From a virus, in IMG/VR virus record IMGVR_UViG_3300030108_004562, positions 19,144-51,272 of that record: a stretch of 32,129 nucleotides of DNA; one strand, written 5' to 3'. The position numbers were made by a program, and so were the translations under genes. The notes under the pieces are model-generated. The model was not told where the DNA came from. It saw only the letters and a list, made by a program, of their open reading frames with translations, and did not search any database. Positions 524 through 27,987 of this stretch are shown one piece after another. Position 1 is the first letter of the stretch. Every line of letters begins with the position of its first letter.

Positions 524-1927
524 ATGGGCAAAAAGAAAAAAATATTACTCCTATCAGATGACTTGAGAATGCATAGTGGTATAGCCACTCAATCAAAAGA
601 ATTTGTGATGGGCACGATTCACAAATATGATTGGTGTCAACTTGCTGGAGCTGTTAATCATCCAGAACAAGGTAAGGTAGTTGACATGAGTCAAGCAGTT
701 CAAAATGAGTATGGAGTTAAAGATGCATACTTAAAACTATATCCACTGTCTGGTTATGGAAATCCAAATGTTTTAAGAGAGGTTATGGAAGTAGAAAAAC
801 CTGACGCAATCCTACACTTTACAGATCCAAGGTTTTGGATTTGGTTATATCAAATGGAACACGAATTAAGACAAAACATTCCAATAATGTACTATAACAT
901 TTGGGACGACATTCCAGATCCTTTGTACAATGCAAACTTTTATAGAAGTTCAGATATGTTAATGTCAATATCAAAACAGACTTATGGTATTAACAAAAGA
1001 ATACTTTCTAAGTATGGTTATAAAGACTGGCAATTAGACTACGTACCACATGGAATCACAGATAAAAGAATATCTAAAATAAAAGATAAAGGTGATACAA
1101 AATTCAGAGAGTTTGAACAAAGACATGGATTAGATAAATATAAATTTAAAATTCTTTATTTAAATCGTAACATTAGAAGAAAACTACCAGGAGATGTGGC
1201 ACTTGCTTACAAACATATGATGGATAAACTCACACCTGAGCAAAGAAAAGAGTGTTGTTTGGTGTTCCACTCAGCTCCATCAGATGAAAATGGTACTGAC
1301 ATGAGAGCTGTGTGTAAAACACTTTTACCTGACTATCCTGTTATTTTTACGTATGATATTAATGGAGCTTTTACTGATGAAGACATGAATTTTATTTATA
1401 ACTCATCAGATGTTTACATCAATATGGCATCCAATGAGGGATTTGGATTGGGTAGTTGTGAGTCACTTCACTCAGGAACACCAATTGTAGTTAATGTTAC
1501 AGGTGGACTACAAGACCAATGTGGATTTTATAAGAAAAATTGGTCTCCTGATGGTAGTGGTTATTCAATCGATTATCTAACTGCTGAAGATTATGTTGAA
1601 CTACAATCTAATCATAGAGGAACTTACATGGATCATGGTGAATGGGTTAAACCTGTATTTCCAACTAATATAAGTTTACAAGGTTCACCATTAACACCAT
1701 ACATTTTTGATGATAGGTGTAGTTATGAGGACGCAGGTGAAGCTCTATTGGAGTGGTATAAGGTTGGTCCTAAGGAACGAGAAAGATGTGGTGAGTTGGG
1801 AAGACAGTTTGTTTTAAATGAAGGTAGAATGACTGGAAAACATATGTCAGAATCATTCATTAAAAACATTGAAGCTACATTTAAAAATTGGAAACCAAGA
1901 GAACAATATACGTTGGAGGCTGTGTAA
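524..1927 (+). CDS. GT-B glycosyltransferase, family GT4-like
   Basis: This 467-residue protein transfers a sugar from a nucleotide-sugar donor, probably in the cytoplasm. The N-terminal Rossmann half opens with a KKILLLSDDL strand and an HSGIATQ glycine loop. The C-terminal half carries the GT4 donor-site signature: NEGFGLGSCESL, with the E-x7-E pair at E305 and E313, followed by SGTPIVVNVTGG. The length is normal for the family. The stop codon shares a base with the start of a second, divergent GT4-like gene, so the two are probably co-translated and may act consecutively on one glycan. Donor and acceptor cannot be read from the sequence. Confidence 0.88.
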   Translation: MGKKKKILLLSDDLRMHSGIATQSKEFVMGTIHKYDWCQLAGAVNHPEQGKVVDMSQAVQNEYGVKDAYLKLYPLSGYGNPNVLREVMEVEKPDAILHFTDPRFWIWLYQMEHELRQNIPIMYYNIWDDIPDPLYNANFYRSSDMLMSISKQTYGINKRILSKYGYKDWQLDYVPHGITDKRISKIKDKGDTKFREFEQRHGLDKYKFKILYLNRNIRRKLPGDVALAYKHMMDKLTPEQRKECCLVFHSAPSDENGTDMRAVCKTLLPDYPVIFTYDINGAFTDEDMNFIYNSSDVYINMASNEGFGLGSCESLHSGTPIVVNVTGGLQDQCGFYKKNWSPDGSGYSIDYLTAEDYVELQSNHRGTYMDHGEWVKPVFPTNISLQGSPLTPYIFDDRCSYEDAGEALLEWYKVGPKERERCGELGRQFVLNEGRMTGKHMSESFIKNIEATFKNWKPREQYTLEAV

Positions 1928-3285
1928 TGAAAAAAATTATGTTAATATGTGCACCTGTTTCATCAAGAAGTGGGTATGGTGACCACGCTAGAGATTTAGT
2001 GACATCATTTATTCAACATGAAAAATATGATATTAAAATATGGGATGTTCCTTGGGGAGAAACTCCAAGAAATGCACTCGATAAAAATAACGAGAATCAT
2101 AAAAAAATGTTAAATTGTATTTTAGAAACACCGGAAATAGATAGACAACCTGATGTTTATGTTGATATAAGAATACCAAATGAATTCCAACAATATGGTA
2201 AGTTTAACATAGGAATTACCGCCGGTATAGAAACTACGATTGTATCTCAAGCTTGGATAGAGGGTTGTAATAAAATGGATTTAATTATAGTTCCCTCAGA
2301 ACACTCCAAAGACGGTTTTGTAAAGTGTGTTTATGACAAGGTTCAAAATTTACCAGATGGAAAACAACAAAAAATTGGTGAATTAAAATTAGAAAAACCA
2401 GTGGAAGTTTTATTTGAAGGAGCGGATGATAGTGTATTTAAACCAATTGATAATTCATCGTTAGATTTAGTGGATGACATTAAAGAGAACTTTTGTTTCT
2501 TACATGTAGGGTTGTGGGGTAAAGGTGGATTTGGAGAGGACAGAAAAGATATTTCAAAGTTGGTAAAGATATTTTACGAATCATTCGCTAATAAAAAAGA
2601 ACAACCAGCTCTAATATTAAAAACCAATGGTGCTGGGTTTTCAGTGATTGACAGAGAGGAATGTTTAAATAAAATAAAACAAATTAAAGATTTGTTCCCA
2701 TCGGATTGGAAGTTACCAAACATATACTTATTACATGGTTCTCTCTCTAATGAAGAGATGAATAAATTGTATAACCACCCAAAAGTTAAATCGTTTGTTT
2801 CATTCACTCATGGTGAGGGATTTGGTAGACCGATGTTAGAAGCCTCTATGGTTGGATTACCTGTCGTGTGTAGTGGGTGGAGTGGACAACTAGATTTTCT
2901 TGATGGAGAAAAATCACTATTGATAGGTGGTGAATTAAAACCAATTCCAAAATCAGCAGAGTGGAAAGATATTCTCGTAAGTGGTAGTGAGTGGTTTGTT
3001 ATAAACGAAACTCAGGCTTATAAGTCTTTAAATTATGTTTTTGAACATTATGATGATGTCAGTTCAAAATCTAAATCATTGATGAAAGAAAATAGGGAAA
3101 AATTTACACTTTCTAATATGACCGAAAAGTTAGATGAAATGGTTGAAAAATATTTAAAAAATATTCCCCAACAGGTCGGACTTAAATTACCAAAATTAAA
3201 AAAAGTTGGAGAGGGTAAATCAGAATTACCAAAACTAAATTTACCAAAACTAAAAAAAGTTAAAACAGAGGGAGCGTCGGTATGA
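1927..3285 (+). CDS. GT-B glycosyltransferase, GT4-like, with LPKLKK tail
   Basis: This is a 452-residue GT4-like transferase. The ATG at 1927 overlaps the previous TAA (TAATG) and follows a GGAGG; a longer frame from 1888 would intrude into the upstream gene and is not preferred. The N-terminus has KKIMLICAPVSSRSGYGDHA, a donor-fold glycine loop. The C-terminal domain has HGEGFGRPMLEAS with E297 and E305 as the E-x7-E pair, then GLPVVCSGWSG. After the catalytic fold (about residue 415) comes a low-complexity basic tail with LPKLKKV at 421-427, LPKLN at 434-438 and LPKLKKV at 439-445. The next protein ends with the same motif. The tail is not part of the usual GT4 fold and may be a docking or targeting peptide. 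Confidence 0.87.
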   Translation: MKKIMLICAPVSSRSGYGDHARDLVTSFIQHEKYDIKIWDVPWGETPRNALDKNNENHKKMLNCILETPEIDRQPDVYVDIRIPNEFQQYGKFNIGITAGIETTIVSQAWIEGCNKMDLIIVPSEHSKDGFVKCVYDKVQNLPDGKQQKIGELKLEKPVEVLFEGADDSVFKPIDNSSLDLVDDIKENFCFLHVGLWGKGGFGEDRKDISKLVKIFYESFANKKEQPALILKTNGAGFSVIDREECLNKIKQIKDLFPSDWKLPNIYLLHGSLSNEEMNKLYNHPKVKSFVSFTHGEGFGRPMLEASMVGLPVVCSGWSGQLDFLDGEKSLLIGGELKPIPKSAEWKDILVSGSEWFVINETQAYKSLNYVFEHYDDVSSKSKSLMKENREKFTLSNMTEKLDEMVEKYLKNIPQQVGLKLPKLKKVGEGKSELPKLNLPKLKKVKTEGASV

Positions 3286-3770
3286 AAGACATAGTTAGTA
3301 ATTGTTTTTTGTGTGGAGAACACTCCTTACATGTGGTTGGGAAAGAGGACTCTCAAATTATGCAATGTATCAACTGTGGTTATGTGACCTCTACTAAATA
3401 TATTGGGACTAGAGAAACAAATGAGGAGTTTCAAAATTTAACTGAAGAAATGAAAAAGTGGTCAAAAGAGGAAAATGGTCGCATTTGGATACCCACAATT
3501 TTAACTTTACCAATAGGAATGTTGTATCCGGAGGACATTAAAGGTGAAATGAAATGGTTGTTTGCACCAATGGTTGAAATATCAGAGGAAGAAAGAGAAA
3601 ACTTTCCTAATGAACAAGGTGGGTTCTACAATAAAAAGATAGACACAGATAATTCAACAGTGTACGATGAGTTTTTTGAGGGTATGTTGGAGGTTAATAA
3701 AAAAATAAAAGAGGCTTCTGAACCAAATAAGGTAAACTTAGAATTACCAAAGTTAAAAAAAACTAATTAA
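3282..3770 (+). CDS. Zinc-ribbon protein with LPKLKK C-terminus, function unknown
   Basis: The protein has 162 residues. The N-terminus contains two Cys pairs (CFLCGEH and CINCGYVT) spaced like a zinc ribbon. The middle part is acidic and rich in aromatic residues (KWLFAPMVEISEEERENF). The last eight residues read LPKLKKTN at 155-162, repeating the tail of the upstream glycosyltransferase. It overlaps that gene by ATGA at 3282-3285, so they are likely co-translated. I do not recognise a named family. The zinc ribbon suggests nucleic-acid or protein binding, while the shared tail suggests that both proteins meet a common partner. Both points are inference. Confidence 0.7.
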   Translation: MKDIVSNCFLCGEHSLHVVGKEDSQIMQCINCGYVTSTKYIGTRETNEEFQNLTEEMKKWSKEENGRIWIPTILTLPIGMLYPEDIKGEMKWLFAPMVEISEEERENFPNEQGGFYNKKIDTDNSTVYDEFFEGMLEVNKKIKEASEPNKVNLELPKLKKTN

Positions 3771-4324
3771 TGGCTAGAAGAGATAAATCAAATAGACATA
3801 AGAGGTTTTATCCTAAAAAAACTGATAGAGTAGACTTATCTAAGTTTAATGTGAAGTCAGGAATGATTGTAGAATTTCCATATAAAACAAGTGAGAGAAC
3901 AACTAGACCACTAGTTTTTGTGATGGATACTGAGGAAAATTCTCAAGGAAAGAAAAAAAAATTTAGTGGACTTAATTTAAATTACTTACCCATATCAGTA
4001 ATAGAAAAATTCTTTACACAAATGTTATCTATAGCCGATTTTGAAATAGATAGACACACTAATTGTCCAAAAGTTAATTTGTGGGAAGAAGAGGATGAGG
4101 GTGTAAGACCAATAATTATTTATGATAAGGTTGTAAAAAAATCAATACTTCCAAAATATCCATGTTGGAGAAGTTATAGTTATCATAGGATTACGGACAT
4201 ATATCAAATTAGATTTCATTTCACAACACCACCACTAAATTTAATATATGAAGGAAGTAAAAGACTTGGAAGAGCAAGTGAAAATGAAATAAAAAGAATT
4301 TTAAATACGGTAAATAAAAAATGA
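3770..4324 (+). CDS. Phage protein with RPLVFV / GLNLNYL core, possibly virion-associated
   Basis: This 184-residue protein has a very basic N-terminus (ARRDKSNRHKRFYPKK) and then an SH3-like opening (SGMIVEFPYKT). The core is TTRPLVFVMDTEEN followed by KFSGLNLNYLPI. I associate this pair of motifs with small proteins of T4-like marine phages that are sometimes labelled DNA-end-protector or head proteins, but I am not certain of that label. It lacks a visible Shine-Dalgarno sequence and starts in a TAATG overlap with the previous stop, so translation is probably coupled. It is the strongest hint that the cassette is embedded in phage genes rather than a bacterial locus. Confidence 0.55.
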   Translation: MARRDKSNRHKRFYPKKTDRVDLSKFNVKSGMIVEFPYKTSERTTRPLVFVMDTEENSQGKKKKFSGLNLNYLPISVIEKFFTQMLSIADFEIDRHTNCPKVNLWEEEDEGVRPIIIYDKVVKKSILPKYPCWRSYSYHRITDIYQIRFHFTTPPLNLIYEGSKRLGRASENEIKRILNTVNKK

Positions 4325-4941
4325 AAATAAGTTATAGCATATTGACTCATAATGAAGATGAGTCACTACAAAAACTACTTGAGTTTTTAGTCAAATACAA
4401 AGATGAAGAAGACGAGATAGTAGTCCTTGATGATTATTCAGACAATCCAAAAACAAAAGAGATATTAGATGTGATGACATCCATGCACGAAATGACTTTT
4501 GAACAAAGACATTTGTTAAAAGATTATGCTGGTCAGAAAAATTATCTAAAAAATATGTGTACAGGTGATTATATATTTAATTTAGATGCAGATGAATTAC
4601 CACACAAATCATTAATAAAAAATATAAAGTCAATTTTAGAATCAAATCCAACAATAGATTTGTATTGGGTGTCAAGAGTAAACACGGTCGATGGTATCAC
4701 ACAAGAGCACATTGATAAATGGAAATGGAATGTAAATGAACAAGGTTGGGTAAATTGGCCAGATTATCAAGGTAGAATTTGGAGAAATCGTCCAAACATT
4801 ATGTGGAAGAATAAAGTGCACGAAGTGTTAACAGGTTATAAAGAGCATACATACCTTCCAATGGAGGAAGAATTTTGTTTTTATCACCCCAAAACAATAG
4901 ATAGACAAGAAAGACAGAATGAGTTCTATGACACGATTTAG
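4321..4941 (+). CDS. GT2-family glycosyltransferase
   Basis: This 206-residue GT-A enzyme begins with the GT2 strand MKISYSILTHNEDE and a second conserved strand, EIVVLDDYSD. The metal/nucleotide-binding D-x-D is in FNLDADELP (D89-A-D91, followed by E92), as in WaaE/KdtX-like transferases. The AGQKNYLKNMCTGDYI segment before it matches the GT2 pattern in which a Lys/Asn-rich helix precedes the DxD. The C-terminal part is short, and the frame runs on into the next gene with a 23-base overlap. It starts in ATGA with the previous stop and has no Shine-Dalgarno sequence. Confidence 0.88.
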   Translation: MKISYSILTHNEDESLQKLLEFLVKYKDEEDEIVVLDDYSDNPKTKEILDVMTSMHEMTFEQRHLLKDYAGQKNYLKNMCTGDYIFNLDADELPHKSLIKNIKSILESNPTIDLYWVSRVNTVDGITQEHIDKWKWNVNEQGWVNWPDYQGRIWRNRPNIMWKNKVHEVLTGYKEHTYLPMEEEFCFYHPKTIDRQERQNEFYDTI

Positions 4942-6337
4942 TTTAGATGAAATAGACATTTCTAAATTTAAAATCATAAAATCTAGAGAAAAATGGTATG
5001 GTAGTCAAGATCACTCTCGGTGGATATTCTATGATGAAACTAATAAATTATATTATAAAATTTGGAACGACACGTACGTTAGAAGAGATACTGTTTCAAC
5101 GGCATTTAAGTCAGGATTTTATGATAGTGAGTTACTACCAAATTTTGAAGGTCTTATTTTTTGGGAAGGAGTGTGTCGTGGATATGTAATGAGAGAGTGT
5201 GAAAAATATGGTGTGATGGAGGATAGTTTTTTTAATGATATAAAGGAAAGGACAAAAAACACCAACATGTTTGCTTATGATTTGTGTCCGAATCATGTTT
5301 TTAAATATCAAGAAAAATTAACTATTATTGATTTAGAGGGAGTTTATAGTTTAGAAGAATATGATAATAAGAAAAGAGAACACCATTCATTAGGAATACC
5401 AGGAAGATTTGTAGAGTATGAACTATATGAAAGTTATATTAATGATTTAAAATACAAACCTCTATCAGAGAAACAATTTTTAGAAATGCCTTTACAAAAA
5501 GGTAAAGGTGGTAAAGAAATAATTTTAAATGATTATTCTTTAAAAACAGTAGAGGATGTTATTAACTTTTACTCTGATAAAAATAATGTAGATTATATTA
5601 AGTCAAAATTAGAACCGAATAATTGGCAATATTTTAATTGTATGATGGCTGAGTTTAGGCATAATGTTGGAGATCATCATGAGTTGGGGTGGGAGAATAT
5701 GACTAAAGAATACTACGAGTCTTTACCGATGATGAGTGACAATGAAATAAAAACATTTTTAAAGAATAATCCAGCACCATTCGATGTTTGTTTTGTCAAA
5801 CATGGGTTTCACAGAGCAGTGTCAATGATTGGTAGAATGATAAAAGGTAAACCATACATTCCATTTTATGTGAAAAAAAATGTTGTTGACTTAACATCGA
5901 ACGTTAAATTTTTACACAGAATAAAAGATTGGCCGAAAGAGGAGTACACCATAATGCAAAGTGGTATATTGGCACTCATGGGAATAAGACAAAACAGTGA
6001 TTTGGATGTGGTTGTGTCTTCAAAATTAAAAAACGAATTGTCTCATGTTCCAGATGGGATTGAGGTCATGGTTGATAGAAACAAATTTAAAGTCTTTGGG
6101 TGTTCTGGTGATGATGATTTAGTTTATAACTATAGTATTAATATTAATGGTTATAATTTTGCTGAACCTAGATTCTACTTTAGTAGACTTTGGCCAGATA
6201 GAGAGAGTAAAATAGAAGACCAAAAAAGGATATTGAACTTTAGGGAAAGAGGTTCTTCAAACATATATCCATTTTCACAAATAACTGATGAGCAGTGGGG
6301 ATTTAATTTATTACCAAAAAAATCTCTTGTTTATTAG
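4919..6337 (+). CDS. Kinase-like / HR-motif / nucleotidyltransferase-like fusion protein
   Basis: The 472-residue protein appears to have three parts. Residues 1-150 look like an aminoglycoside-phosphotransferase/protein-kinase fold: YYKIW (K47) as the ATP-site lysine, RGYVMRECEKYG as hinge, D121-LCPN125 as catalytic loop and IIDLEGVY (D138) as metal-binding aspartate. Residues 285-320 (FDVCFVKHGFHRAVSMIGR, then a KPYIPFYV strand) carry an H-G-F-H-R motif like ParB/sulfiredoxin folds. Residues 350-370 have GIRQNSDLDVVVS, a nucleotidyltransferase-like motif with D361 and D363. It begins inside the preceding gene (ATG 4919, or ATG 4928) and closes the first operon. The substrate is unknown. The kinase reading is the best supported, and the other two are tentative. 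Confidence 0.6.
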   Translation: MSSMTRFSLDEIDISKFKIIKSREKWYGSQDHSRWIFYDETNKLYYKIWNDTYVRRDTVSTAFKSGFYDSELLPNFEGLIFWEGVCRGYVMRECEKYGVMEDSFFNDIKERTKNTNMFAYDLCPNHVFKYQEKLTIIDLEGVYSLEEYDNKKREHHSLGIPGRFVEYELYESYINDLKYKPLSEKQFLEMPLQKGKGGKEIILNDYSLKTVEDVINFYSDKNNVDYIKSKLEPNNWQYFNCMMAEFRHNVGDHHELGWENMTKEYYESLPMMSDNEIKTFLKNNPAPFDVCFVKHGFHRAVSMIGRMIKGKPYIPFYVKKNVVDLTSNVKFLHRIKDWPKEEYTIMQSGILALMGIRQNSDLDVVVSSKLKNELSHVPDGIEVMVDRNKFKVFGCSGDDDLVYNYSININGYNFAEPRFYFSRLWPDRESKIEDQKRILNFRERGSSNIYPFSQITDEQWGFNLLPKKSLVY

Positions 6338-6355: not shown

Positions 6356-6383
6356 AATAAAATAACTATATTGGGAGTTTAAA

Positions 6384-7157
6384 TTGAAAAAATTAAAAGA
6401 TACAATAACTATATTTCAAAATTTCGCTTGTACAAAAAAAGAGAGATTGGAGTTTGTCCAAGGTAACGTTCCTAAACTTGCAAAAGTTTGGGGAGAGTAT
6501 GAACACCACATAAATTATAATCATACAAAATATTTTGAAGACTACAAAAAACTTTACACAGAAAATTATCCAAATTTAACCATGTATAATGATTTAACTA
6601 AAGATTGGGTATTGATAGCACTATCCATGTTACAAGAAATTAAAACACCTTACATACTAAACTATGCTGAAGATTTTGAATGTAATATGTCGAGGGACGA
6701 ATGGGAAAATTTTGCAACAGAAGCTATATTTGAGAAACAAATAAAGTTTGTTAATCTTACAAAAATAAGAAAATACACGAGAGAAGTTTTTCCTGGTTAT
6801 GAGGATGGTAAACATGGTTATTACTATAAAGCCAAGGACTCACCTCCAACGAGAGTATCAGGTACAGGTATTTTTGAAAAAGAGTGGTACATAGAAATAT
6901 TAACAGAATACATGCAAAATAGACACAATCACATTAACTCAATTCCATATGGTTATCCTGAGTTACCTAATTGTCTTGAAGGATATCTTGATTATGAAAG
7001 AGGTATAAGAAAATATGGAGACATGCAATGTGGTATACCTAAGAAAGATATTTTTGTTCATTGGGACGCTGTTACTCAACAGGCTGAGTATGTAAATAAA
7101 CAAACAGGAAAACAAAAAGGTAATGCTAGAGACCACAATAATTATTGGGCGAGGTAA
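6384..7157 (+). CDS. Probable GT-A glycosyltransferase-like protein (TTG start)
   Basis: The 257-residue protein starts at a TTG, supported by GGGAG eight bases upstream; there is no nearby in-frame ATG that keeps the N-terminus. KDTITIFQNF followed by WVLIALSMLQEIKTPYILNYAEDFEC resembles the GT2/GT-A layout in which a helix leads into a beta strand and an acidic metal-binding turn. Here the turn is EDFE rather than DxD. The C-terminal half is rich in Tyr, Trp and His and contains a GTGIFEKEWYIEIL segment. It directly precedes sugar-modifying enzymes in the same unit. It could also be a non-catalytic relative, given the unusual acidic motif. Confidence 0.5.
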   Translation: MKKLKDTITIFQNFACTKKERLEFVQGNVPKLAKVWGEYEHHINYNHTKYFEDYKKLYTENYPNLTMYNDLTKDWVLIALSMLQEIKTPYILNYAEDFECNMSRDEWENFATEAIFEKQIKFVNLTKIRKYTREVFPGYEDGKHGYYYKAKDSPPTRVSGTGIFEKEWYIEILTEYMQNRHNHINSIPYGYPELPNCLEGYLDYERGIRKYGDMQCGIPKKDIFVHWDAVTQQAEYVNKQTGKQKGNARDHNNYWAR

Positions 7158-7160
7158 AAG

Positions 7161-7637
7161 ATGATAGACGGATTAAAAATATATCAACCAGATAGGTGGG
7201 AAGATTTTAGAGGTGACATTTACACAACTTGGGATACTGAAAATTATCCTAATTTAAATTGGAGATTAGATAAATTTTCACATTCAAGAAAGAATACATT
7301 AAGAGGATTACATGGAGATTTTGAAACTTGGAAACTTATTAATTGTGTTTATGGTAAATTTTATTTAGTAGTGGCTGATAATCGTAAGGACTCTCCAACA
7401 TATAAAGAATGGCAGTGGTTTGTATTATCAGCTGAAAATAGAAAACAAGTTTTAGTTCCACCTGGTTGTGGTAACGCTCATTTTGTTTTAAGTGATGATT
7501 GTACATTTCATTATAAATTAGCATTTGATGGTGAATATAATGATATTGAAAATCAATTTGTAATTAAGTGGGACGATTCAGACTGGAACTTTGAATGGCC
7601 ACATAGTAATCCAATATTATTTGGGAGGGATAAGTAA
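7161..7637 (+). CDS. dTDP-4-dehydrorhamnose 3,5-epimerase-like cupin (RmlC family)
   Basis: RmlC enzymes epimerise C3 and/or C5 of a 4-keto-6-deoxy nucleotide sugar. The protein has 158 residues, slightly shorter than the usual 175-185. It keeps the family landmarks in order: DFRGDIY near residue 15, the LRGLHGD motif with catalytic-type His51, KLINCVYGKFYLVVADNR, DSPTYKEW, LVPPGCGNAHFVLS and KWDDSDWNFEWP near the end. In most homologues the residue after GLH-x is Gln or Lys; here it is Asp-Phe, so specificity may differ (it could be a 3- or 5-epimerase only). It starts three bases after the previous stop with GAGG upstream, and the TPP-enzyme pair follows. Confidence 0.85.
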   Translation: MIDGLKIYQPDRWEDFRGDIYTTWDTENYPNLNWRLDKFSHSRKNTLRGLHGDFETWKLINCVYGKFYLVVADNRKDSPTYKEWQWFVLSAENRKQVLVPPGCGNAHFVLSDDCTFHYKLAFDGEYNDIENQFVIKWDDSDWNFEWPHSNPILFGRDK

Positions 7638-8248: not shown

Positions 8249-8256
8249 GAGAAAAT

Positions 8257-12037: not shown

Positions 12038-12062
12038 TATATATACATTCTAAAGGGTTACA

Positions 12063-18902: not shown

Positions 18903-18904
18903 AA

Positions 18905-19309: not shown

Positions 19310-19599
19310 TATTTGTGGACATAGATGGAACTATTTGTCATACCGAAAATTCAGATTATTTTAATTCAGATCCAAGATATGACCAAATAGAGAAAATAAA
19401 TAAACTATATAAAGAGGGACATGAAATAGTTTATTGGACTGCTCGTGGTGGGCATAGTGGGAAAGATTGGAGTGTTTTAACCGAAAGACAATTAAACAAG
19501 TGGGGATGTGAATACACCAGAATTGAAACACATAAAAAACCATCTTGGGATTTACTCATAGATGATAAAACAAAAAGAATTGAGGAGATCGATAAATAA
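19303..19599 (+). CDS. Short HAD-family phosphatase (TTG start)
   Basis: The 98-residue protein carries the HAD motifs: VDIDGTICHTEN (D-x-D-G-T), YWTARGG (motif II Thr) and KKPSWDLLIDDKT (motif III Lys plus acidic motif IV). There is no cap domain, so it is a minimal HAD resembling phage and bacterial PNKP-type 3'-phosphatase or haloacid-dehalogenase-like small proteins. Its position after a split HldE suggests the dephosphorylation step that GmhB does in heptose synthesis, though GmhB is nearly twice as long. I place the start at TTG 19303 (GGGAGG four bases upstream, overlap of seven bases with the previous gene); 19291 is an alternative. Confidence 0.75.
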   Translation: MVIFVDIDGTICHTENSDYFNSDPRYDQIEKINKLYKEGHEIVYWTARGGHSGKDWSVLTERQLNKWGCEYTRIETHKKPSWDLLIDDKTKRIEEIDK

Positions 19600-21050: not shown

Positions 21051-21051
21051 T

Positions 21052-21288
21052 ATGGAAAAGAATTGGGATGATATAAAAACTAATTTGTTGTCCTCAGTGG
21101 CTAAAGAGGGTAAATACGTAACACAAATAATTCATTTTAAGAATGGTTACAGAAAAACCATCCACGGAGTAGATACTTTAAGTATTGAACAAGGACAGTT
21201 TACTAAATTTAAGTGTAAAGATGGTAGATATATTTTAATTAATGACGACAATGTTTTAATGGTTGAGTGTTTTAAGGAGGACAAATAA
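21052..21288 (+). CDS. Small beta-rich protein of unknown function (78 aa)
   Basis: I do not recognise this protein. It has 78 residues, with alternating hydrophobic and polar residues (YVTQIIHFKNGYRKTIHGV, then FTKFKCKDGRYILINDDNVLMVE) that suggest a small beta sheet. There is a single Cys near the middle and another near the end. AAAGGA lies upstream, and its TAA overlaps the next gene's ATG (TAATG). It resembles small accessory proteins found between phage genes and is unlikely to be an enzyme. Confidence 0.6.
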   Translation: MEKNWDDIKTNLLSSVAKEGKYVTQIIHFKNGYRKTIHGVDTLSIEQGQFTKFKCKDGRYILINDDNVLMVECFKEDK

Positions 21289-22394
21289 TGGATATAAGAG
21301 AGAACATGTTACCAGTGTTAGCACCACAAGGTGGTAAAGAGGAAATAAAAGCACTAACTGAGGTTATTGAAAGTGGTTGGTGGGGTAAAGGTCCTAAAGT
21401 TGCAGAGTTTGAAGAAAAGTTTGCAAAGATGGTTGGACATAAATATGCAGTAGCTGTTACGAGTGCATCTCATGGACAAGATTTAGTAATGAAAGCATTA
21501 GGTTTTAAAGGTATTGATGTTATTAATCCAGCTATATCATTTATAGCCACCGCAATGATACCATTATGGAATAACTTCACGACAAACATAGTTGACGTTA
21601 AAAGAGATACTTTGTGTATAGATCCTGAGGATGTTGAAAGATACAAAAAACCGAATAGTGAAGTTTTAATTGCAGTTGATGAAGCTGGAGTCTTGGCAGA
21701 TTATGAGGGATTAAGAAAAGTATTTGGTGGATTTATCCTTGAAGATTGTGCTCACAGTTGTTGGACACCTGGTGCAGGTTTAGGTGGTGATTGTGCAGTC
21801 TGGTCATTTCAAGCTGTTAAAACTATGCCGATGGGTGATGGTGGGATGATAACAACGGATGATAAGGATTTGGCCGATAAGTGTAGGGAGATGACTTGGT
21901 TTGGAGTATCATCCACTTGGAGTAGAGCTTCAGGTCAAACACCAGGTTATGCTTGGGACTATCAAGTTGATATACTTGGGTATAAATATTATATGATTGA
22001 TATAATGGCAGCAATTGGTTTAGAACAAATGAAAAAGTTACCTAAACATTTAGAGTTTAGAAGACACGTTCAGTCACGATATAATAAAGAATTAAATTCA
22101 ATTATTGAACGACCACCTCATTCAGAAACGGTTCAATACTATGTTCCAAGAGTGCCGAGTGAACATAGAGATAAATTGATTGATTACTTGGCTGATAAAA
22201 AAATACACACATCAGTTCACTTTAAACCTTTATACAAGTATGGACCTTTGTTACAAGACAGAGATTATCCTGTGTGTGAAACTGAATGGACAAAGTTAAT
22301 ATCACTACCTTGTCACAATAGAATGAAAGAGGAAGACATTGATTATGTGGTGTATTGGGTTAACAAGTATTTTGAGGAGACAGATTTTGTTTAA
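21288..22394 (+). CDS. DegT/DnrJ/EryC1/StrS aminotransferase
   Basis: These PLP enzymes aminate keto-sugars on nucleotide diphosphates. The 368-residue protein has normal length. VIESGWWGKGPKVAEFEEKFA is the substrate-entry segment, AVAVTSASHGQDL binds the cofactor phosphate, FILEDCAHSCW follows, and SFQAVKTMPMGDGGMI carries the PLP-binding Lys (K178). SVHFKPLYKYGPL near the end is the family's phosphosugar-side motif. AAGGAGG lies upstream. Together with the dehydratases at 12063 and 23001 it should give an amino-deoxy sugar. It has no acetyltransferase neighbour that I can recognise, so later N-acylation is uncertain. Confidence 0.9.
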   Translation: MDIRENMLPVLAPQGGKEEIKALTEVIESGWWGKGPKVAEFEEKFAKMVGHKYAVAVTSASHGQDLVMKALGFKGIDVINPAISFIATAMIPLWNNFTTNIVDVKRDTLCIDPEDVERYKKPNSEVLIAVDEAGVLADYEGLRKVFGGFILEDCAHSCWTPGAGLGGDCAVWSFQAVKTMPMGDGGMITTDDKDLADKCREMTWFGVSSTWSRASGQTPGYAWDYQVDILGYKYYMIDIMAAIGLEQMKKLPKHLEFRRHVQSRYNKELNSIIERPPHSETVQYYVPRVPSEHRDKLIDYLADKKIHTSVHFKPLYKYGPLLQDRDYPVCETEWTKLISLPCHNRMKEEDIDYVVYWVNKYFEETDFV

Positions 22395-23001
22395 TTATTT
22401 TATAAAAGACTTACTGACTCTTCAGATAACAAATCTAAAAAAACTAGATGAATCTGAACAATCAGAATTTCCAAAATTTGAAAAGTCTAAAAAAAGTGTG
22501 TCTGAAAAGTATGATGACCATATATGTGAGCTAATATCTAGAAATTCAATATCACCATTGAATGTTTTAGATATAGGTTGTGGTCACGGAAATCATCTAC
22601 ACTCAGTTCATAAAAAATTTGATTCAAGGTGTGTTGGAATTGATATCAAATACTCTGGCTCTTGGGATGAATACGAGTCAAGAAGTGTTCGTTTTTTTAA
22701 ACAAGATGTGGATGACGTTATTAAAAATATAAATTGTGATAAACCATTTGATGTTATAATAACCATGAACACGTTAAGGGCTGAAATACGAGAAAAATCA
22801 AAAAATCCGTACCAAGCTCAATGGAAATATAATTATTATGAGAAATTTTTAACTTGGTGTAGTAAAAATTGTAAATATTTAATTACAAATAATTGTCAAC
22901 ACAGAGATTTTGTAAACTTCAATTTAGTTGATAACCTCTCTGGCGAGGATATTTTAGATTGTAATTTATTTAAAAGTAAAATTAACGAGGGAGACATTTA
23001 A
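22387..23001 (+). CDS. Class I SAM-dependent methyltransferase (TTG start)
   Basis: The 204-residue protein has VLDIGCGHGNHLHSV as motif I, CVGIDIKYSG as motif II and FDVIITMNTL as motif IV, a standard Rossmann methyltransferase. I choose the TTG at 22387 because GAGGAG lies seven bases upstream; the frame extends to 22339, but that would read deep into the aminotransferase gene. The overlap with the previous gene is eight bases, the same TTG-plus-stop arrangement as at 14575. Methylation of a sugar is likely from context. Confidence 0.82.
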   Translation: MFNYFIKDLLTLQITNLKKLDESEQSEFPKFEKSKKSVSEKYDDHICELISRNSISPLNVLDIGCGHGNHLHSVHKKFDSRCVGIDIKYSGSWDEYESRSVRFFKQDVDDVIKNINCDKPFDVIITMNTLRAEIREKSKNPYQAQWKYNYYEKFLTWCSKNCKYLITNNCQHRDFVNFNLVDNLSGEDILDCNLFKSKINEGDI

Positions 23002-23990
23002 TGAAAATATTAATCACAGGTGGAACTGGATTTCAAGGTTCAAATTTATCAAAGAGTCTATTAGATGATGGACATGATGTTGTGATACTAAATTTACATT
23101 CTGAAAAGAATGAAACAAATATAAAAAGATTTGGACTAGATAGAGCTAAAATAATATGGGGATCTATAAATGATATTTACACTGTTAAAGACACTATGGA
23201 GGGTGTTGATTTGGTCGTACATACGGCTGCAAAAATACATGTAGATGATTCGATACAACACCCAACGTCATATTTTAAAACAAATGTAATGGGAACAAAT
23301 AATGTTTTAGAAGTTGCTAGACAATTTAATGTTCCTGTTATACATGTTTCCACGTGTGAGGTTTACGGATTCCAAGATGAAGATTTGTTAGAAACATCAC
23401 CATTAATGCCTAGGTCACCATACGCTGCATCTAAAGCAGGAGCAGATAGAATGGCTTACTCATACTATACAACGTATGACATGAATATTTGTATAGTAAG
23501 ACCATTTAATGTATTTGGTCCTGGTCAAAAAGATGGTAAGTGTGGTGCAGTGATACCAATATGGACTACAAGTCTTCTTGAGGGTAATGATATTACAATC
23601 TACGGAGAAGGAACTCAATCAAGAGAATTTATTTTTATAGATGACTTAGTATCTGCATATAGAATAATAATAGATAAGATGTTATCTGGTAAAGAACTTG
23701 CAGGTGAAGTATTGAATGTGGGGACAGGAATAGAAGTAAAGGTTAATGATTTAGCTAACAACATGGTTAAAAGAGTAGATAGTGAATGGAAAGAACCAAA
23801 ACACCACGACTTCTCCTATCCGACATCGGAGGTAAAAGAATCAGGTAAAATATTATATGGTGAAGCAAGACCAGGTGAAGTAAAAAGATTTATATCTAAT
23901 TCAGATAAAATGAAATCGTTTGGTTGGTCACCTGAGGTTGGATTGGAAGAGGGGTTGAGTAAATACATAAATTGGAGAAAGTCTTTATGA
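23001..23990 (+). CDS. dTDP-glucose / UDP-GlcNAc 4,6-dehydratase-like SDR
   Basis: The 329-residue extended SDR has complete catalysis: GGTGFQGSN (7-15), VVHTAAKIHVDDS, HVSTCEVYG and SPYAASKAGADRM (Y-x-x-x-K). RPFNVFGPGQ, EGTQSREFIFIDDLVSA and ARPGEVKRFISNSDKM complete the substrate side. The S-T-x-E-V-Y-G motif is typical of NDP-sugar 4,6-dehydratases (RmlB/LegB-like) rather than 4-epimerases. The start is a TAATG junction with GGGAG upstream. It probably supplies the keto-sugar for the aminotransferase at 21288; specificity for dTDP or UDP is not determined. Confidence 0.85.
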   Translation: MKILITGGTGFQGSNLSKSLLDDGHDVVILNLHSEKNETNIKRFGLDRAKIIWGSINDIYTVKDTMEGVDLVVHTAAKIHVDDSIQHPTSYFKTNVMGTNNVLEVARQFNVPVIHVSTCEVYGFQDEDLLETSPLMPRSPYAASKAGADRMAYSYYTTYDMNICIVRPFNVFGPGQKDGKCGAVIPIWTTSLLEGNDITIYGEGTQSREFIFIDDLVSAYRIIIDKMLSGKELAGEVLNVGTGIEVKVNDLANNMVKRVDSEWKEPKHHDFSYPTSEVKESGKILYGEARPGEVKRFISNSDKMKSFGWSPEVGLEEGLSKYINWRKSL

Positions 23991-24997
23991 GTCGTATGAA
24001 AATAGCATGGTTAAGTGAGGGTGGTTATACAGGTAAAGTTCCAAGACAAGCTACAGCCAATGCTGGGGTGTTGTGGGCTTGGATGTCAAATTTAGAAGTT
24101 GACCACTATCCTATATTAAATTTCGAAACAGCTCCAACTGACGGTTATGAATACTTAATATTACAGGTTCCAAAAACTCCTGAGGTTAGAACTGCATTGT
24201 TTGAAAAAAACATAGTCAAACAGGCTAGAAGAATAGCTAAAAAGATATTATTTTTTCAAGAAGGTCCTGTTTGGGTATATCAAGACATGCCACTAGAACA
24301 ACAATTTTGGCATTACAACACTTTGGTTGATGTGGATTTAATATTTTGTGAAAACACAACAGACATTTCATACTATAAAGGATTTGTTCCAGGTAAACCG
24401 GTGACAAATTTACCAGATTTAATTGTTGATGACACTATAAAAGGAGTTAGAGATATTGAAAAACAAGATAAGGCAATAATAGGTGGAAACTTTTGTAGAT
24501 GGTATGGTGGATTTGATTCTTATATTGTGGCTCAAGAGTTTGGAGTCCCATTACATGCTCCAAGTATGGGTAGAAAAATAGAGGGAGAGGAACAAATACC
24601 TGATTTGACTCACTTACCTTTTTTAAATTGGAGAGAGTGGATGTTTAAATTAGCCGAGTTTAGATATGCTATTCACTTGATGCAAACATATGCTGCTGGT
24701 TCATTCATGATGAATTGTGGTTATCTTGGAATTCCTTGTATTGGGTATAATCACACAGACACTCAGAGAAATATATTTCCTGATTTATCAATAGACCAAG
24801 ATGATTTAGAAACAGCCAGAAAATTAGCAAGAAAGTTAGTAGATGACAAAGATTTTTACAATGAGTGCTCACAAAAAGCCATAGTTAATTTTGAGAAACA
24901 CTCAAGTGAAACTTCCTTTAATAAATGGAAAGACAACTTTTTTGATAAAGTAGATGATTTAATAGATGGTAAAATTAGTTATATAGGAGATTATTAA
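23987..24997 (+). CDS. GT-B glycosyltransferase-like protein
   Basis: This 336-residue protein starts at ATG 23987 in ATGA with the previous gene, with GGAG upstream. KIAWLSEGGYTGKVPR is a first Rossmann strand and loop, KKILFFQEGPVWVYQD and DLIFCENTTDISYYKGFVPG resemble the inter-domain region of GT4-like enzymes, and FMMNCGYLGIPCIGYNHTDTQRNIFP plus a helical tail resembles the donor domain. The classical E-x7-E pair is not obvious. I am fairly sure of the fold type but not of activity. Confidence 0.65.
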   Translation: MSRMKIAWLSEGGYTGKVPRQATANAGVLWAWMSNLEVDHYPILNFETAPTDGYEYLILQVPKTPEVRTALFEKNIVKQARRIAKKILFFQEGPVWVYQDMPLEQQFWHYNTLVDVDLIFCENTTDISYYKGFVPGKPVTNLPDLIVDDTIKGVRDIEKQDKAIIGGNFCRWYGGFDSYIVAQEFGVPLHAPSMGRKIEGEEQIPDLTHLPFLNWREWMFKLAEFRYAIHLMQTYAAGSFMMNCGYLGIPCIGYNHTDTQRNIFPDLSIDQDDLETARKLARKLVDDKDFYNECSQKAIVNFEKHSSETSFNKWKDNFFDKVDDLIDGKISYIGDY

Positions 24998-26184
24998 TGA
25001 AACCAATTAGTTTTATAATTCCAAGTAGAAACAATTTAAGATATTTAAAATGGTGTTACAATTCTATCAGAAAGAATTTAGGGTATATTCATGAAATTTG
25101 TATCGCTGATGACTCGTCCGAGGATGGAACTTGGGATTGGTTAAAAGAGATATCAAAAAAAGATGACGGAGTTAAAATACATAGAAACGAAGGTCCTGAC
25201 AGAGAGGGGTTAGTCGTATTATATGATAAGTTAGTTAAGGACTATTCAACAAATGATGTCATAATGATATTTCATGCCGATATGTATGCCTGTCCAGGAC
25301 TAGATGAGGCTGTGTTTAAACATTTAAAAAAGAAAACTATAGTTTGTGCCACTAGGGTAGAGCCATCATTACATCCACCAGGACCTGAAAAAATAGTATC
25401 TGATTATGGTATTGAACCTGAAGAATTTGATGAACAAAAGTTTTTATCAGATTTAAACGGATTCAGAGACAAAGATAAAATAACTCATGGAATATTTGCA
25501 CCTTGGGCAATATACAAAGAAGATTTTTGGGATGTGGGTGGCCACGACCAATTATTTTCACCAACTAGTAGAGAGGACTCGGATATATTTAATAGATTTC
25601 TGTTGAATGGTTGTAAATTTATTCAGACTTGGGATGGTATGGTTTATCATTTAACTAGTAGAGGTAGTAGATTTAACACATTTAGTGGTGGTGAACCTGG
25701 AAAGAAAAACTCAAAGGAGTGGCAGTATACAAATCATAAAAATATCAGAAACTTTGTTCGTAAGTGGGGAACAATGGTAAGACATGATACCCAAATGATG
25801 CCAATTGTATCACCAAAATATGATATTGGATTTGTGGTTAAAAATTGTTCACACTCAACATTATATGAATTAGAACCTTGGTGTTCAACAATTTATACAG
25901 ATTGGGGACACAAGGCCTATATAGATACAGAACAACAAAACACTCTATTGAATTTAAAAGATAGAGTTAAATCTAGATTAGAGGACGATATTGACAATGA
26001 TATTGTTGTTGAGTTTGATGCACGAGAGTTTACACCAGAACAATTTAATTATATAGCTCAATTACCAGACATACTCTCTAACGATGAGGAACTTGAAGTT
26101 GGTGAGTTTAACTTGGGTATATTTAAAATAACGATTAATCAAATAAAAACATATGAAAAGGAGTTAATTAAAGATGTCTTTTGA
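24997..26184 (+). CDS. GT2 glycosyltransferase with extra C-terminal domain
   Basis: The 395-residue protein has a GT2 domain in about residues 1-260: ISFIIPSRNNLRYLKWC, ICIADDSSEDGT, IMIFHADMYACPG (DxD-like HAD at 93-95) and VGGHDQLFSPTSREDSDIF, the acceptor-site ED motif. After residue 260 comes a second part (VVKNCSHSTLYELEPWC, then FDAREFTPEQFNYIAQLPD and a GEFNLGIFKI strand) that is not part of GT2 and is rich in acidic residues. The start is TAATG with AGGAG upstream; it overlaps the next gene by 11 bases. Confidence 0.88.
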   Translation: MKPISFIIPSRNNLRYLKWCYNSIRKNLGYIHEICIADDSSEDGTWDWLKEISKKDDGVKIHRNEGPDREGLVVLYDKLVKDYSTNDVIMIFHADMYACPGLDEAVFKHLKKKTIVCATRVEPSLHPPGPEKIVSDYGIEPEEFDEQKFLSDLNGFRDKDKITHGIFAPWAIYKEDFWDVGGHDQLFSPTSREDSDIFNRFLLNGCKFIQTWDGMVYHLTSRGSRFNTFSGGEPGKKNSKEWQYTNHKNIRNFVRKWGTMVRHDTQMMPIVSPKYDIGFVVKNCSHSTLYELEPWCSTIYTDWGHKAYIDTEQQNTLLNLKDRVKSRLEDDIDNDIVVEFDAREFTPEQFNYIAQLPDILSNDEELEVGEFNLGIFKITINQIKTYEKELIKDVF

Positions 26185-27157
26185 AATGGAAATGGAAGAT
26201 TACCGTGAGGATAAAATTTTAGAGAGAGGATGTAAAAAGTGCATAGTTACAGGTGGAGCTGGATTCATAGGTAGTCACCTTGTGGATAGGTTAATTAGTG
26301 ATGGTCATGAAGTTCATGTCTTGGACGATTTATCAACTGGTAAGAGAGAAAATGTAAATGACAAAGCCACATTTAGTCACTTTGATTTAGGTAATTTAGA
26401 TTTATGTAAGATACAATATGGTTGGAAACAAGCTTGGGAGGGTGCGGACATAGTTTTTCATTTGGCTGCAAAAGCTCGTGTTCAACCATCTATTGACAAT
26501 CCAATCGAGTTTAATCAAGTTAATGTGAACGGAACTTTAAATATGTTAAAAACTGCAGTTGAGTATGGAGTAAAAAGGTTTATTTTTACTTCATCATCAT
26601 CTGTTTATGGTGATGTAAAACAAAAAGATTTACCGACAAGTGAGTTTTCTGATACTAATCCTTTGAGTCCATATGCTTTACAGAAACTTATTGGTGAACA
26701 ATATTGTAAATTATACAGTAAATTATATGGTTTAGAAACTGCTTCTTTGAGGTACTTTAACGTATATGGTGATAGGATGTCATTGGATGGGGCATATAGA
26801 ACTGTTATACCTATATTTACTAAACAAAGATTAGATGGTGAACCAATGACAATTAGAGGTGATGGGGAACAACGAAGAGATTTTACTTACGTGGGTGATG
26901 TGGTTGAGGCTAATATACAAGTGGGGTTTGATGAACACAAACTCAGAGGTGCAGTATTAAATGTAGGTAATGGTGATAACCGTTCAGTAAATGAAATAGC
27001 AAACATGATTGGAGGTGACAGAGTTAATATTGAACCTGTTATAGAGCCTCAAGAGACACTGGCTGACAACAGAGAACTCATGGAGTGTTTTAATTGGAAA
27101 CCAACAATGAAAATTGAAGATTGGATAAAAACTTACAAGGAGACATTAGGATTATGA
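26174..27157 (+). CDS. UDP-glucose/UDP-GlcNAc 4-epimerase-like SDR (GalE/WbpP type)
   Basis: This 327-residue extended SDR has a 20-residue acidic N-terminal extension before VTGGAGFIGSHLVDRL. Then come DDLSTGKRENV, VFHLAAKARVQPS, TSSSSVYGD, SPYALQKLIGEQY (Y-x-x-x-K), LRYFNVYGDR and IRGDGEQRRDFTYVGDVVEA. This pattern is typical of GalE/WbpP-like 4-epimerases. Catalytic residues are complete. AAGGAG lies 11 bases before ATG 26174; ATG 26186 is an alternative that shortens the extension. Its product could feed the dehydrogenase that follows. Confidence 0.88.
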   Translation: MSFEMEMEDYREDKILERGCKKCIVTGGAGFIGSHLVDRLISDGHEVHVLDDLSTGKRENVNDKATFSHFDLGNLDLCKIQYGWKQAWEGADIVFHLAAKARVQPSIDNPIEFNQVNVNGTLNMLKTAVEYGVKRFIFTSSSSVYGDVKQKDLPTSEFSDTNPLSPYALQKLIGEQYCKLYSKLYGLETASLRYFNVYGDRMSLDGAYRTVIPIFTKQRLDGEPMTIRGDGEQRRDFTYVGDVVEANIQVGFDEHKLRGAVLNVGNGDNRSVNEIANMIGGDRVNIEPVIEPQETLADNRELMECFNWKPTMKIEDWIKTYKETLGL

Positions 27158-27987
27158 GAGTAGGAATAGTAGGACAAGGTTATGTAGGGAGTGCAGTTAG
27201 AGAGGTGTTTAGTAAACACTATGAAATAAATACATTTGATTTAAATGGTAAATGTAATTGTACAGATATAGAAGATTTAGTTAATAAATCAGATATTATT
27301 TTTGTATGTGTTCCAACACCAATGAAAAAAGATGGTAGTTGTGATACGAGTATAGTTGAGAGTGTGGTTGATGAGATAGATGATGTTGACATTACTGATA
27401 AAATAGTAGCTATTAAATCTACAATTCCACCAGGAACTACAAATAGATTAAACAAAAAATGTAAAAACATATCAGTAATATTTAATCCAGAGTTTTTAAC
27501 AGAGGCTAATTTCATAGATGATTTCAAGAATCAGAATAGAATCATAATTGGTGGTGAAAGACCATCAACCACAAAGTTAAGACAAGTGTATTCATTGGTA
27601 TTTCCAGATGCTAAGATAGTTAAGACAGGTTCTATAACTGCTGAGATGGTTAAGTATTTTACAAATACATTCTTAGCGACAAAAGTATCATTCGCTAATG
27701 AAATGAAAATGTTGTGTGATGAACTGAATATTGATTATGATAAAGTTGTGGAGTATTCCACATATGATGAGAGGTTAGGAAAATCACATTGGGCCGTTCC
27801 AGGACCTGATGGAAAGTTAGGTTTTGGAGGAAGTTGTTTTCCAAAAGATTTAAATGCATTAATTGACTTGTGTTATGAGAAATCAATAAAAGCAAATACA
27901 TTATTTGGTGCTTGGGAAACCAATTTAGAAGTAAGACCAGAACAAGATTGGAAAGAGTTAAAGGGTAGAGCTGTGGTTGATGAATAA
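27154..27987 (+). CDS. UDP-sugar 6-dehydrogenase, lacking the C-terminal UDP-binding domain
   Basis: These enzymes oxidise C6 of a UDP-sugar to a uronate in two NAD steps. The ATG at 27154 overlaps the previous stop (ATGA). The 277-residue protein has the NAD site GIVGQGYVGSA (4-14), VCVPTP, IKSTIPPGTT, FNPEFLTEANF, KYFTNTFLATKVSFANE and the catalytic Cys in GFGGSCFPKDLNAL (C228, K231). It stops soon after, so the third domain, which closes over UDP in full-length enzymes (about 390-430 residues), is missing. It is followed by the 61-base gap that ends the cassette. Confidence 0.83.
   Translation: MRVGIVGQGYVGSAVREVFSKHYEINTFDLNGKCNCTDIEDLVNKSDIIFVCVPTPMKKDGSCDTSIVESVVDEIDDVDITDKIVAIKSTIPPGTTNRLNKKCKNISVIFNPEFLTEANFIDDFKNQNRIIIGGERPSTTKLRQVYSLVFPDAKIVKTGSITAEMVKYFTNTFLATKVSFANEMKMLCDELNIDYDKVVEYSTYDERLGKSHWAVPGPDGKLGFGGSCFPKDLNALIDLCYEKSIKANTLFGAWETNLEVRPEQDWKELKGRAVVDE

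Follow-up and report, generated by a model that had tools for sequence, protein, structure and literature searches.

The right-hand part of a record from a T4-like tailed phage (Caudoviricetes) carries a locus with fixed genes at both ends and, between them, sugar-making and sugar-transferring genes that are interchangeable. The locus occupies one site in about 30 related contigs. Its frame consists of GT4a, GT4b, a zinc-ribbon protein, a small protein and GT2a at the left end (GT, glycosyltransferase) and of GT2b at the right, the last with or without an SDR (SDR 4) and a UDP-sugar dehydrogenase, and the middle between them is an exchangeable cassette of 2–30 kb. Cassettes are exchanged by recombination in these anchor genes.

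In its architecture the locus resembles a bacterial capsule or O-antigen locus. Those loci likewise have fixed ends, a variable centre of NDP-sugar and GT genes, and recombination in the ends; the present locus differs in that it resides in a phage and has no Wzx, Wzy, initiating membrane transferase or transporter. Sugar islands in marine phages have been known since P-SSM2 and have been filed as ‘LPS genes’ or ‘stuffer’. The comparison made here shows that the locus is modular and under selection, part of it fixed and part swappable, in a lineage that recurs among marine viral contigs.

Phage context

The window analysed is a stretch of 32,129 nt that makes up the right-hand 32 kb of a virus record 51.3 kb long (IMG/VR IMGVR_UViG_3300030108_004562). 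All features given below by window position lie on the + strand. A T4-like replication module occupies the remaining 19 kb, with RecA/UvsX, gp41-type helicase, PolB, clamp and clamp loader (on L001), the order of which is kept in relatives; PolB homologues were matched in 2567 phage records. A gp23-type capsid or terminase gene was not found on the 51-kb record, and a Pfam search gave no terminase among 17 relatives. With Mel-JY01 proteins as queries after this empty search, gp23-type capsid was found in relatives G008, G001, G027, G040 and G044, and terminase in G027 and G040. The 165–169 kb relatives carry terminase and capsid, and the 67-kb relative G008 has T4-type capsid, replication genes and the sugar locus on a single contig.

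An earlier note, made from the sequence alone, had described about 26 kb of sugar and glycan genes on one strand in a phage-like context, and had named housekeeping-gene flanks as the result that would speak against it. No such flanks were found, and both parts of the description are borne out: the span 524–27987 has 34 open reading frames, all on the + strand, which fill 99.7% of it, and 27 of the 33 neighbouring pairs overlap. The layout of fixed ends around a variable cassette had escaped that note. A bacterial chromosome origin was rejected on the basis of the virus record, the replication genes and the capsid gene of a relative.

On the left the locus is flanked by a 5′-truncated gene for a DprA/LOG-like Rossmann protein (1..264; weak PF02481 match), whose position, directly after a PD-(D/E)XK nuclease (L001:18150-19007), is shared by nearly all relatives. 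The right flank (28049..30746) encodes a putative lipoprotein, small proteins, an HNH endonuclease and a small metal-site-like protein; it is conserved, and its gene order is kept in close relatives.

Mis-binned MAG contigs were rejected as a guide to the host since their taxa conflict (Gammaproteobacteria, Pelagibacter, Euryarchaeota and Flavobacteriales); the phage anchor genes are present in all nine, in conserved order. A flavobacterial host for the source phage is disfavoured because 44% of its genes use a Shine-Dalgarno sequence, versus 3% in the Flavobacterium phage immuto.

Anchor genes

The first gene of the operon encodes a 64-aa protein (314..508), ribbon-helix-helix-like by inspection and a possible regulator. 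It had no match in a Pfam search, and its position is kept in 28 contigs. The left anchors follow: GT4a (524..1927; PF00534), kept in all relatives; GT4b (1888..3285), which matches Pfam GT4 just below the curated cut-off; the zinc-ribbon protein (3282..3770) and the small, fast-evolving protein (3770..4324), each a single family in 31 contigs; and GT2a (4321..4941; PF00535), kept in every relative that carries the locus. The small protein has a weak PHROG match to ‘DNA end protector’ (E 0.0013); its fold model is confident, and comparison of the model with the PDB gave no match.

GT2b (24997..26184; PF00535) is present in loci extending to the right end; the match is weak in G002 (38%), and identity is only 22% in Mel-JY01. 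Within the close clade the usual right end is SDR 4, of epimerase type (26174), and a short UDP-sugar dehydrogenase (27121), together 26174..27987 and both identified by Pfam. The UDP-sugar dehydrogenase of the earlier note keeps its catalytic GGSCFPKD motif, but it lacks the C-terminal UDP-binding domain, as do 11 of 11 aligned relatives.

GT4b ends in a disordered C-terminal tail with two LPKLKK motifs (3187-3204 and 3241-3258), and a third copy is at the C-terminus of the zinc-ribbon protein (3744-3761). The motif was counted 62 times versus 0.2 expected, and 58 of these copies are within GT4b, in the disordered tail. Among solved structures, the nearest to both GT4 anchors is B736L of chlorovirus NY-2A, by profile search for GT4a (E 2.6e-14) and by fold for GT4b (3oy2). 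Chloroviruses glycosylate their virions autonomously, with virus-encoded sugar enzymes and GTs; they differ in being algal viruses, and the homology is remote.

Cassette genes

The cassette of this phage starts with a 472-aa protein (4919..6337), found in 6 of 29 loci and with no match in Pfam, PHROG or PDB, and a 257-aa protein (6384..7157) that is GT-like by context alone. Then come an RmlC/FdtA-type sugar epimerase/isomerase (7161..7637; PF00908, E 1.4e-34), a TPP-dependent E1 alpha and beta pair (7637-8248 and 8233-8793, spanning 7637..8793; PF00676, PF02779), SDR 1 (8768..9676) and SDR 2 (10493..11434; both PF01370), and an NDP-sugar 4,6-dehydratase-like SDR (12063..13019; PF16363, E 2.5e-75). 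Interspersed with these are two proposed 2-oxoglutarate dioxygenases: that at 11403..12020 is of the PhyH type (PF05721), and that at 9648..10496 is putative, recognised by motif and unmatched in Pfam and PHROG.

Two paralogous GT-like proteins (13016-13822 and 13815-14582; 13016..14582) have a DxD motif by inspection, and their family is present in 25 of 29 loci. A fusion of Gfo/Idh and FAD-dependent oxidoreductase domains (14575..16320; PF01408, PF01266) and the next GT-like protein (16317..17315) each occur in 15 of 29 loci. A heptose-type module (17315..18902) consists of an HldE kinase half (17315; PF00294), a cupin (18052), sub-threshold in Pfam, and an HldE nucleotidyltransferase half (18474; PF01467); the best NCBIfam matches of the two halves are rfaE_dom_I/II, under the cut-off. 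The region 18905..20219 encodes a 134-aa conserved protein, a HAD-like phosphatase (19291) and a methyltransferase-like protein (19599), all with weak matches; the first two each recur in 9 loci. A GT-like protein and a 78-aa protein (20220..21288) both recur in other loci. They are followed by a DegT/ArnB/PseC-type sugar aminotransferase (21288..22394; PF01041), whose nearest PDB entry is ArnB, and by a methyltransferase (22339), SDR 3 (23001) and a GT-B-like protein (23972-24997), the last of a family found in 24 of 29 loci; Pfam supports the first two of this group (22339..24997).

The inventory of the earlier note thus holds for the five SDRs (8768, 10493, 12063, 23001 and 26174), the RmlC-like epimerase, DegT aminotransferase, TPP pair, two-domain oxidoreductase and split HldE module. 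One of its two methyltransferases (19599) remains weak. Four of its approximately nine glycosyltransferases match Pfam (524, 1888, 4321 and 24997). The proteins at 6384, 13016, 13815, 16317, 20220 and 23972, as well as those at 9648 and 4919, had no match in Pfam or PHROG, and profiles of 4919, 13016/13815 and 23972 found no solved relative, with the paralogous pair also unmatched in PDB. Sequence motifs and context suggest that the first six may be GTs.

None of the locus enzymes passes an NCBIfam equivalog cut-off, and their substrates therefore cannot be named. The ‘full set’ of the earlier note was too strong a term: besides the HldE half, no sugar-1-phosphate nucleotidyltransferase was found in the locus, and host NDP-sugars or heptose precursors would therefore be needed.

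Exchange and selection

The 29 complete loci hold 593 genes in 215 families, of which 117 are confined to a single locus. What a cassette contains does not depend on how closely the phages are related. The correlation of cassette content with replication-gene identity is slight (Spearman 0.09, P 0.10, over 351 pairs that are not independent of each other), and the median cassette Jaccard index is 0.10 even among pairs with at least 90% replication-gene identity. Conversely, entire cassettes are common to distant backbones: G021 and G024 have nucleases that are 58% identical, yet a cassette Jaccard index of 0.95. In the pair G024/G026, DNA identity is about 89–92% in the flanks and GT4 anchors and 90% in GT2b, and it is 98–100% over a stretch that runs from the small anchor protein and takes in most of the cassette. 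The pattern shows a recombination tract that ends in the anchors.

The many families restricted to one locus would suit transient cargo with no selected function, host polysaccharide genes gathered at a hotspot, and a ‘stuffer DNA’ idea has been raised for cyanophages (PMC3037559). This is contradicted by dN/dS, which is 0.04–0.24 wherever defined, for anchors and cassette genes alike; all tested locus genes are under purifying selection. The anchors are also kept where backbones differ in their DNA polymerase (PolB here, PolA in immuto). Cargo of this kind is thus very improbable.

A promoter-like box

A box, ATATTTATATGTG (280..292), lies 34 nt upstream of the first operon gene, and a second, also present in G038, precedes the dehydratase gene by 30 nt (12033..12045). 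The strict box is found upstream of 17/28 locus-start genes, 25/197 structural homologues and 13/328 replication genes, with 87 copies in forward and 6 in reverse orientation. As a sequence pattern it is a candidate promoter. Boxes of the ATATTTATATGTG class are also upstream of tail genes in relatives and, in one subclade, before the sliding-clamp gene. The T4 late box TATAAATA was sought upstream of genes and gave scattered matches only; the TATTTATATATG box was found instead.

The company of tail genes bears on the question of whether the GTs put variable glycans on a modified base of the phage DNA, with escape from restriction, the basic LPKLKK tails recruiting GT4b to DNA or clamp. The basic character of the tail motif and the location of the locus after the replication module and the nuclease are consistent with this. 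There is a precedent in T4, and GTs that hypermodify phage DNA are among the reports cited in PMC12619734. A box shared with tail genes argues otherwise, as does the finding that no pyrimidine hydroxymethylase (PF00303-type) is common to the relatives. ThyX-like proteins are encoded by Mel-JY01, G027, G003 and G004, ThyA-like by immuto and G043, and diverged ThyA-like by G040 and G044; several long relatives gave no ThyA/ThyX-type enzyme. A TET search had no match, and its control was also silent. In addition, the immuto annotation lists a separate pathway of DNA modification with deazaguanine. To our knowledge, at least 10 cassette genes per glycan far exceeds known DNA glycans. Modified DNA as the acceptor is therefore judged unlikely.

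Membrane proteins

Flippase-, polymerase-, carrier-transferase- or permease-like membrane proteins were not found in the 29 loci. Two or more hydrophobic segments were predicted in 1 of 810 locus proteins, the product of a 145-aa gene adjoining the right anchor of G042, which is not of Wzx/Wzy size; the controls were positive (Wzy 6, Wzx 9 and holin 4 segments). Feeding of host lipid-linked intermediates is compatible with the absence of Wzx/Wzy.

Remodelling of the O-antigen or capsule of infected host cells, which would block superinfection or grazing, has been proposed for P-SSM2 (PMC2984593) and pelagimyophages (PMC7029224). The O-antigen-like enzymes and the lipoprotein-like gene after the locus agree with such a role. 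On the other hand, a multi-sugar repeat would depend on host export in a locus devoid of export-type proteins, and a late-type box would leave little time to change the surface. It appears quite unlikely that this is the function. The earlier note had left open virion decoration or rewriting of host glycans; the former fits better.

Proposed glycosylation of the virion

We favour glycosylation of the virion over modification of DNA or of the host surface. In the scheme proposed, a TATTTATATATG-type promoter would drive late transcription of the operon along with the tail genes, and cassette enzymes would make unusual sugars out of NDP-sugars supplied by host or phage. GT4a, GT4b and GT2a might work in the cytosol and build a shared core straight onto a protein of the phage, with the GT4b tail docking through its LPKLKK motifs to a conserved partner, and cassette GTs and GT2b would extend and cap the core. 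Diversifying selection may act on the variable outer glycan of the virion; the pressures could include traps on the host surface, defences that recognise sugars, or the demands of adsorption. Glycosylation of virions in the cytosol, on a putative acceptor and with switching of a serotype-like kind, is about an even prospect. Against it, T4 DNA glucosyltransferases are phage GTs able to modify DNA, and both GT4s could have host or DNA acceptors. The acceptor of chlorovirus B736L is itself unsettled (PMC9614988).

The more specific proposal, that the exchangeable cassette sets the particle glycan and so creates phage serotypes, with the LPKLKK docking motif tying assembly to a conserved partner, is tentative and falls somewhat short of an even prospect. 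If true, the displayed glycan differs between phages that are nearly identical and is shared by distant ones, and evolution of the capsule-switching type acts on a virus of bacteria. Particles with switchable glycans would come under the kind of surface-sugar selection that capsulated bacteria face, which would matter for adsorption, decoys, defence and grazing.

Related phages

The view in the earlier note that few phages have such gene sets was too strong, in that cyanophages P-SSM2, S-SSM7 and S-SM2 and the pelagimyophages carry LPS-type gene islands (PMC2984593, PMC3037559, PMC7029224). These LPS clusters and the pelagimyophage host-recognition cluster are also large sugar/GT islands of marine T4-like phages, and that of S-SSM7 likewise has no polytopic membrane proteins. 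They differ in position, being located close to hli/phoH/tRNA or within the tail region. Searches with GT4a, GT4b and GT2b matched no Synechococcus or Prochlorococcus phage, and GT4a was detected in no cyanophage record except that of Mel-JY01.

The cultured Microcystis phage Mel-JY01 (PP395634) shares the replication order, a PolB that is 48% identical over its full length, and homologues of GT4a, GT4b and GT2a after the nuclease. Unlike the present phage, it has only about seven GT/methyltransferase-type genes, no NDP-sugar cassette, and the diverged right anchor already described.

The cultured Flavobacterium phage vB_FspM_immuto (NC_055915) has the locus at the same place, preceded by the box, with nuclease, small protein, GT4a, GT4b, zinc-ribbon protein, GT2a, sugar genes, GT2b and a later HNH gene. 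Besides its polymerase, it differs in a cassette of about 6 kb and in having neither the small anchor protein nor a Shine-Dalgarno bias. Immuto grows on Flavobacterium sp. LMO8 and has the same frame, and the question of what the glycan decorates is therefore directly testable.

Gene content and phage origin

The window comprises bases 19144–51272 of a 51,272-base virus record. From 524 to 27987, 99.7% of the DNA lies inside 34 genes on the + strand, with overlaps at 27 of 33 neighbouring pairs; a search of the window for tRNAs and known RNA families found none. The earlier note, made from the sequence alone, had proposed a large set of sugar enzymes here in a phage-like context. Pfam, PHROG and NCBIfam bear out the sugar-enzyme content, except for six of the claimed glycosyltransferases and one dioxygenase, which match no family. 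No enzyme of the locus reaches an NCBIfam equivalog cut-off, and therefore the sugars cannot be named. The UDP-sugar dehydrogenase (27121–27987) passes the NCBIfam subfamily cut-off and nothing higher. In every relative aligned (11 phages) it is devoid of the C-terminal nucleotide-binding (third) domain and keeps the catalytic Cys motif, and a tail of the VRPExDWKxLKGRA type is conserved in all 11.

The left 19 kb of the record encode a RecA/UvsX-like recombinase, an exonuclease, a gp41-type helicase, ribonucleotide reductase, PolB, a clamp, a clamp loader and a PD-(D/E)XK nuclease. IMG/VR contains at least 147 relatives of PolB, and the nearest cultured one (48% over the full length) is in Microcystis phage Mel-JY01, a complete genome whose annotation lists T4-like capsid, sheath, tube and terminase. 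The 51,272-base record itself has no structural genes. The related contig G008 (67 kb) carries capsid, replication module and glycan locus together, its replication genes averaging 84% identity to those of the record, and terminase and capsid are present in G027 (165 kb) and G040 (169 kb). With the replication module on the record and these related contigs, the proposed phage context holds; the sugar-gene locus is real and phage-borne.

Nine matches in bacterial and archaeal assemblies (L313–L321) are phage contigs binned into MAGs. The MAGs that contain these contigs of the lineage are published marine ones with the labels Gammaproteobacteria, Pelagibacter, Euryarchaeota and Flavobacteriales.

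A Shine-Dalgarno bias is seen in 44–56% of genes in the record, G008 and G040 versus 3% in the cultured Flavobacterium phage vB_FspM_immuto (immuto). Because the bias is strong here and absent in immuto, the two types of phage, which share the glyco frame, probably infect hosts of different phyla.

Two features lie left of the window. The clamp-loader reading frame is split by a short N run at about 13957–13968 of the record, and record positions 7674–9023 encode a lipoprotein-like protein that combines a trypsin (S1) domain (E 2.7e-60) with a type I dockerin; homologues occur in contigs G001, G002, G010 and G012, some with two copies.

Fixed ends and an exchangeable middle

About 35 contigs were compared, and cassette gene families were counted in 29 complete loci. 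The left order is nearly everywhere nuclease, DprA-like protein, 64-aa protein, the anchor glycosyltransferases (GT) GT4a and GT4b, zinc-ribbon protein, small protein and GT2a; the zinc-ribbon and small anchor proteins each form one family of 31 members. GT2b recurs at the right end, followed in the close clade by SDR4, the UDP-sugar dehydrogenase, a putative lipoprotein, small genes and HNH. The GT2a–GT2b interval ranges from 2 to 30 kb, and its 593 genes in the complete loci make up 215 families, of which 117 occur in a single locus.

Over 351 non-independent pairs, the similarity of two cassettes does not follow the identity of their replication genes (Spearman 0.09, P 0.10), and the median cassette Jaccard is 0.10 for pairs with replication genes at least 90% identical. 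G010 has replication genes 83% identical to those of the record and no cassette family in common with the window; G038 has a nearly identical cassette set with the order nearly kept. G021 and G024 have a cassette Jaccard of 0.95 although their nucleases are 58% identical, and for G012 and G032 the values are 0.86 and, for replication genes, 54%. G035 has replication genes at 51% on average and a DegT 84% identical to that of the window.

The contigs G024 and G026 display such an exchange at the DNA level. Identity is about 89–92% over nuclease, GT4a and GT4b. The two anchor genes after GT4b reach 96% and 98%, and GT2a 100%; most of the cassette, in which one 5-kb block is replaced, stays at about 97–100%, and GT2b is back at 90%. 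dS drops from 0.4–0.5 to 0.00–0.08 across the high-identity stretch, which is a recombination tract bounded by anchors. dN/dS is 0.04–0.24 in every gene with a defined value; thus the locus is under selection, and this purifying selection contradicts the idea that it is stuffer DNA. Sugar-gene islands are already known from phages; new here is the capsule-locus-like layout with conserved anchors and exchange tracts.

Directly 3′ of the locus, 28049–28486 encodes a small lipobox-like protein whose position is conserved and whose sequence evolves fast (28–52% identity). By analogy it is a candidate superinfection-exclusion lipoprotein.

Possible function

Glycosylation of virion proteins is the best-supported use of the locus, and we give it an even chance of being correct. 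The GT4a profile has chlorovirus NY-2A glycosyltransferase B736L as its best match among solved structures (E 2.6e-14; runner-up 1.8e-6). For GT4b, B736L is the sole match by sequence (E 0.003) and the best in a fold search (3.9e-17; runner-up 1.3e-13). The likeness is suggestive of virion glycosylation but falls short of proof, since the acceptor of B736L is unsettled (PMC9614988). Among 50,697 phage records, GT4a has seven matches, four of them immuto, and GT2b matches immuto only. The cultured immuto phage makes virion-protein glycosylation testable.

Host-surface remodelling, as proposed for cyanophages and pelagimyophages, is opposed by the absence of export genes from the loci. A scan of 810 proteins (at least 80 aa) from 29 loci found a single one with two hydrophobic segments, the product of a 145-aa gene adjoining the right anchor of contig G042. 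The E. coli O16 controls Wzy and Wzx gave 6 and 9 segments, and multi-segment proteins were also found elsewhere in the same genomes. The loci have no phage-encoded lipid-carrier/flippase/polymerase route, and therefore, if the phage does not make use of host export, the glycan must be assembled in the cytosol. DNA hypermodification is another use to consider; against it, no conserved base hydroxylase was found among the relatives, although in the TET search of these relatives, which gave no match, the positive control was likewise silent.

A docking-like motif and a promoter-like box

The C-terminal tail of GT4b is predicted to be disordered (AlphaFold pLDDT <50 over nearly all of 432–465) and usually has two copies of LPKLKK. 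In 765,301 residues of 36 phages, LPKLKK occurs 62 times versus 0.2 expected: 58 copies in GT4b, three C-terminal in the adjoining zinc-ribbon protein and one at the start of GT4a. In these phages it is thus all but confined to the glycan locus. Those of the window are at 3187–3204 and 3241–3258 (GT4b tail) and 3744–3761 (zinc-ribbon protein end). A relaxed form is in GT4b of all contigs, including immuto. The motif is read as a putative short linear docking motif.

The box ATATTTATATATG, with variants, has 87 copies on the coding strand versus 6 on the other, a bias that argues against a symmetric operator, and 74 copies are intergenic, just 5′ of a gene. With one mismatch to the core tolerated, it lies upstream of 17 of 28 operon-start genes (immuto included). 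The same is true of 25 of 197 structural homologues, six tail-tube and four sheath genes included, and of 13 of 328 replication genes, the majority being the clamp of one subclade. From this placement we infer that it may be a late promoter. The window has the box at 280–292, with a second copy at 12033–12045 before the dehydratase gene. The box, which tail genes have as well, and the putative glycosyltransferase docking motif belong with the layout to what is new here.

The 64-aa ribbon-helix-helix-like protein (314–508) is the product of the first operon gene in 28 contigs, which is one of the best conserved of the operon; it is possibly a regulator of the operon or of late genes.
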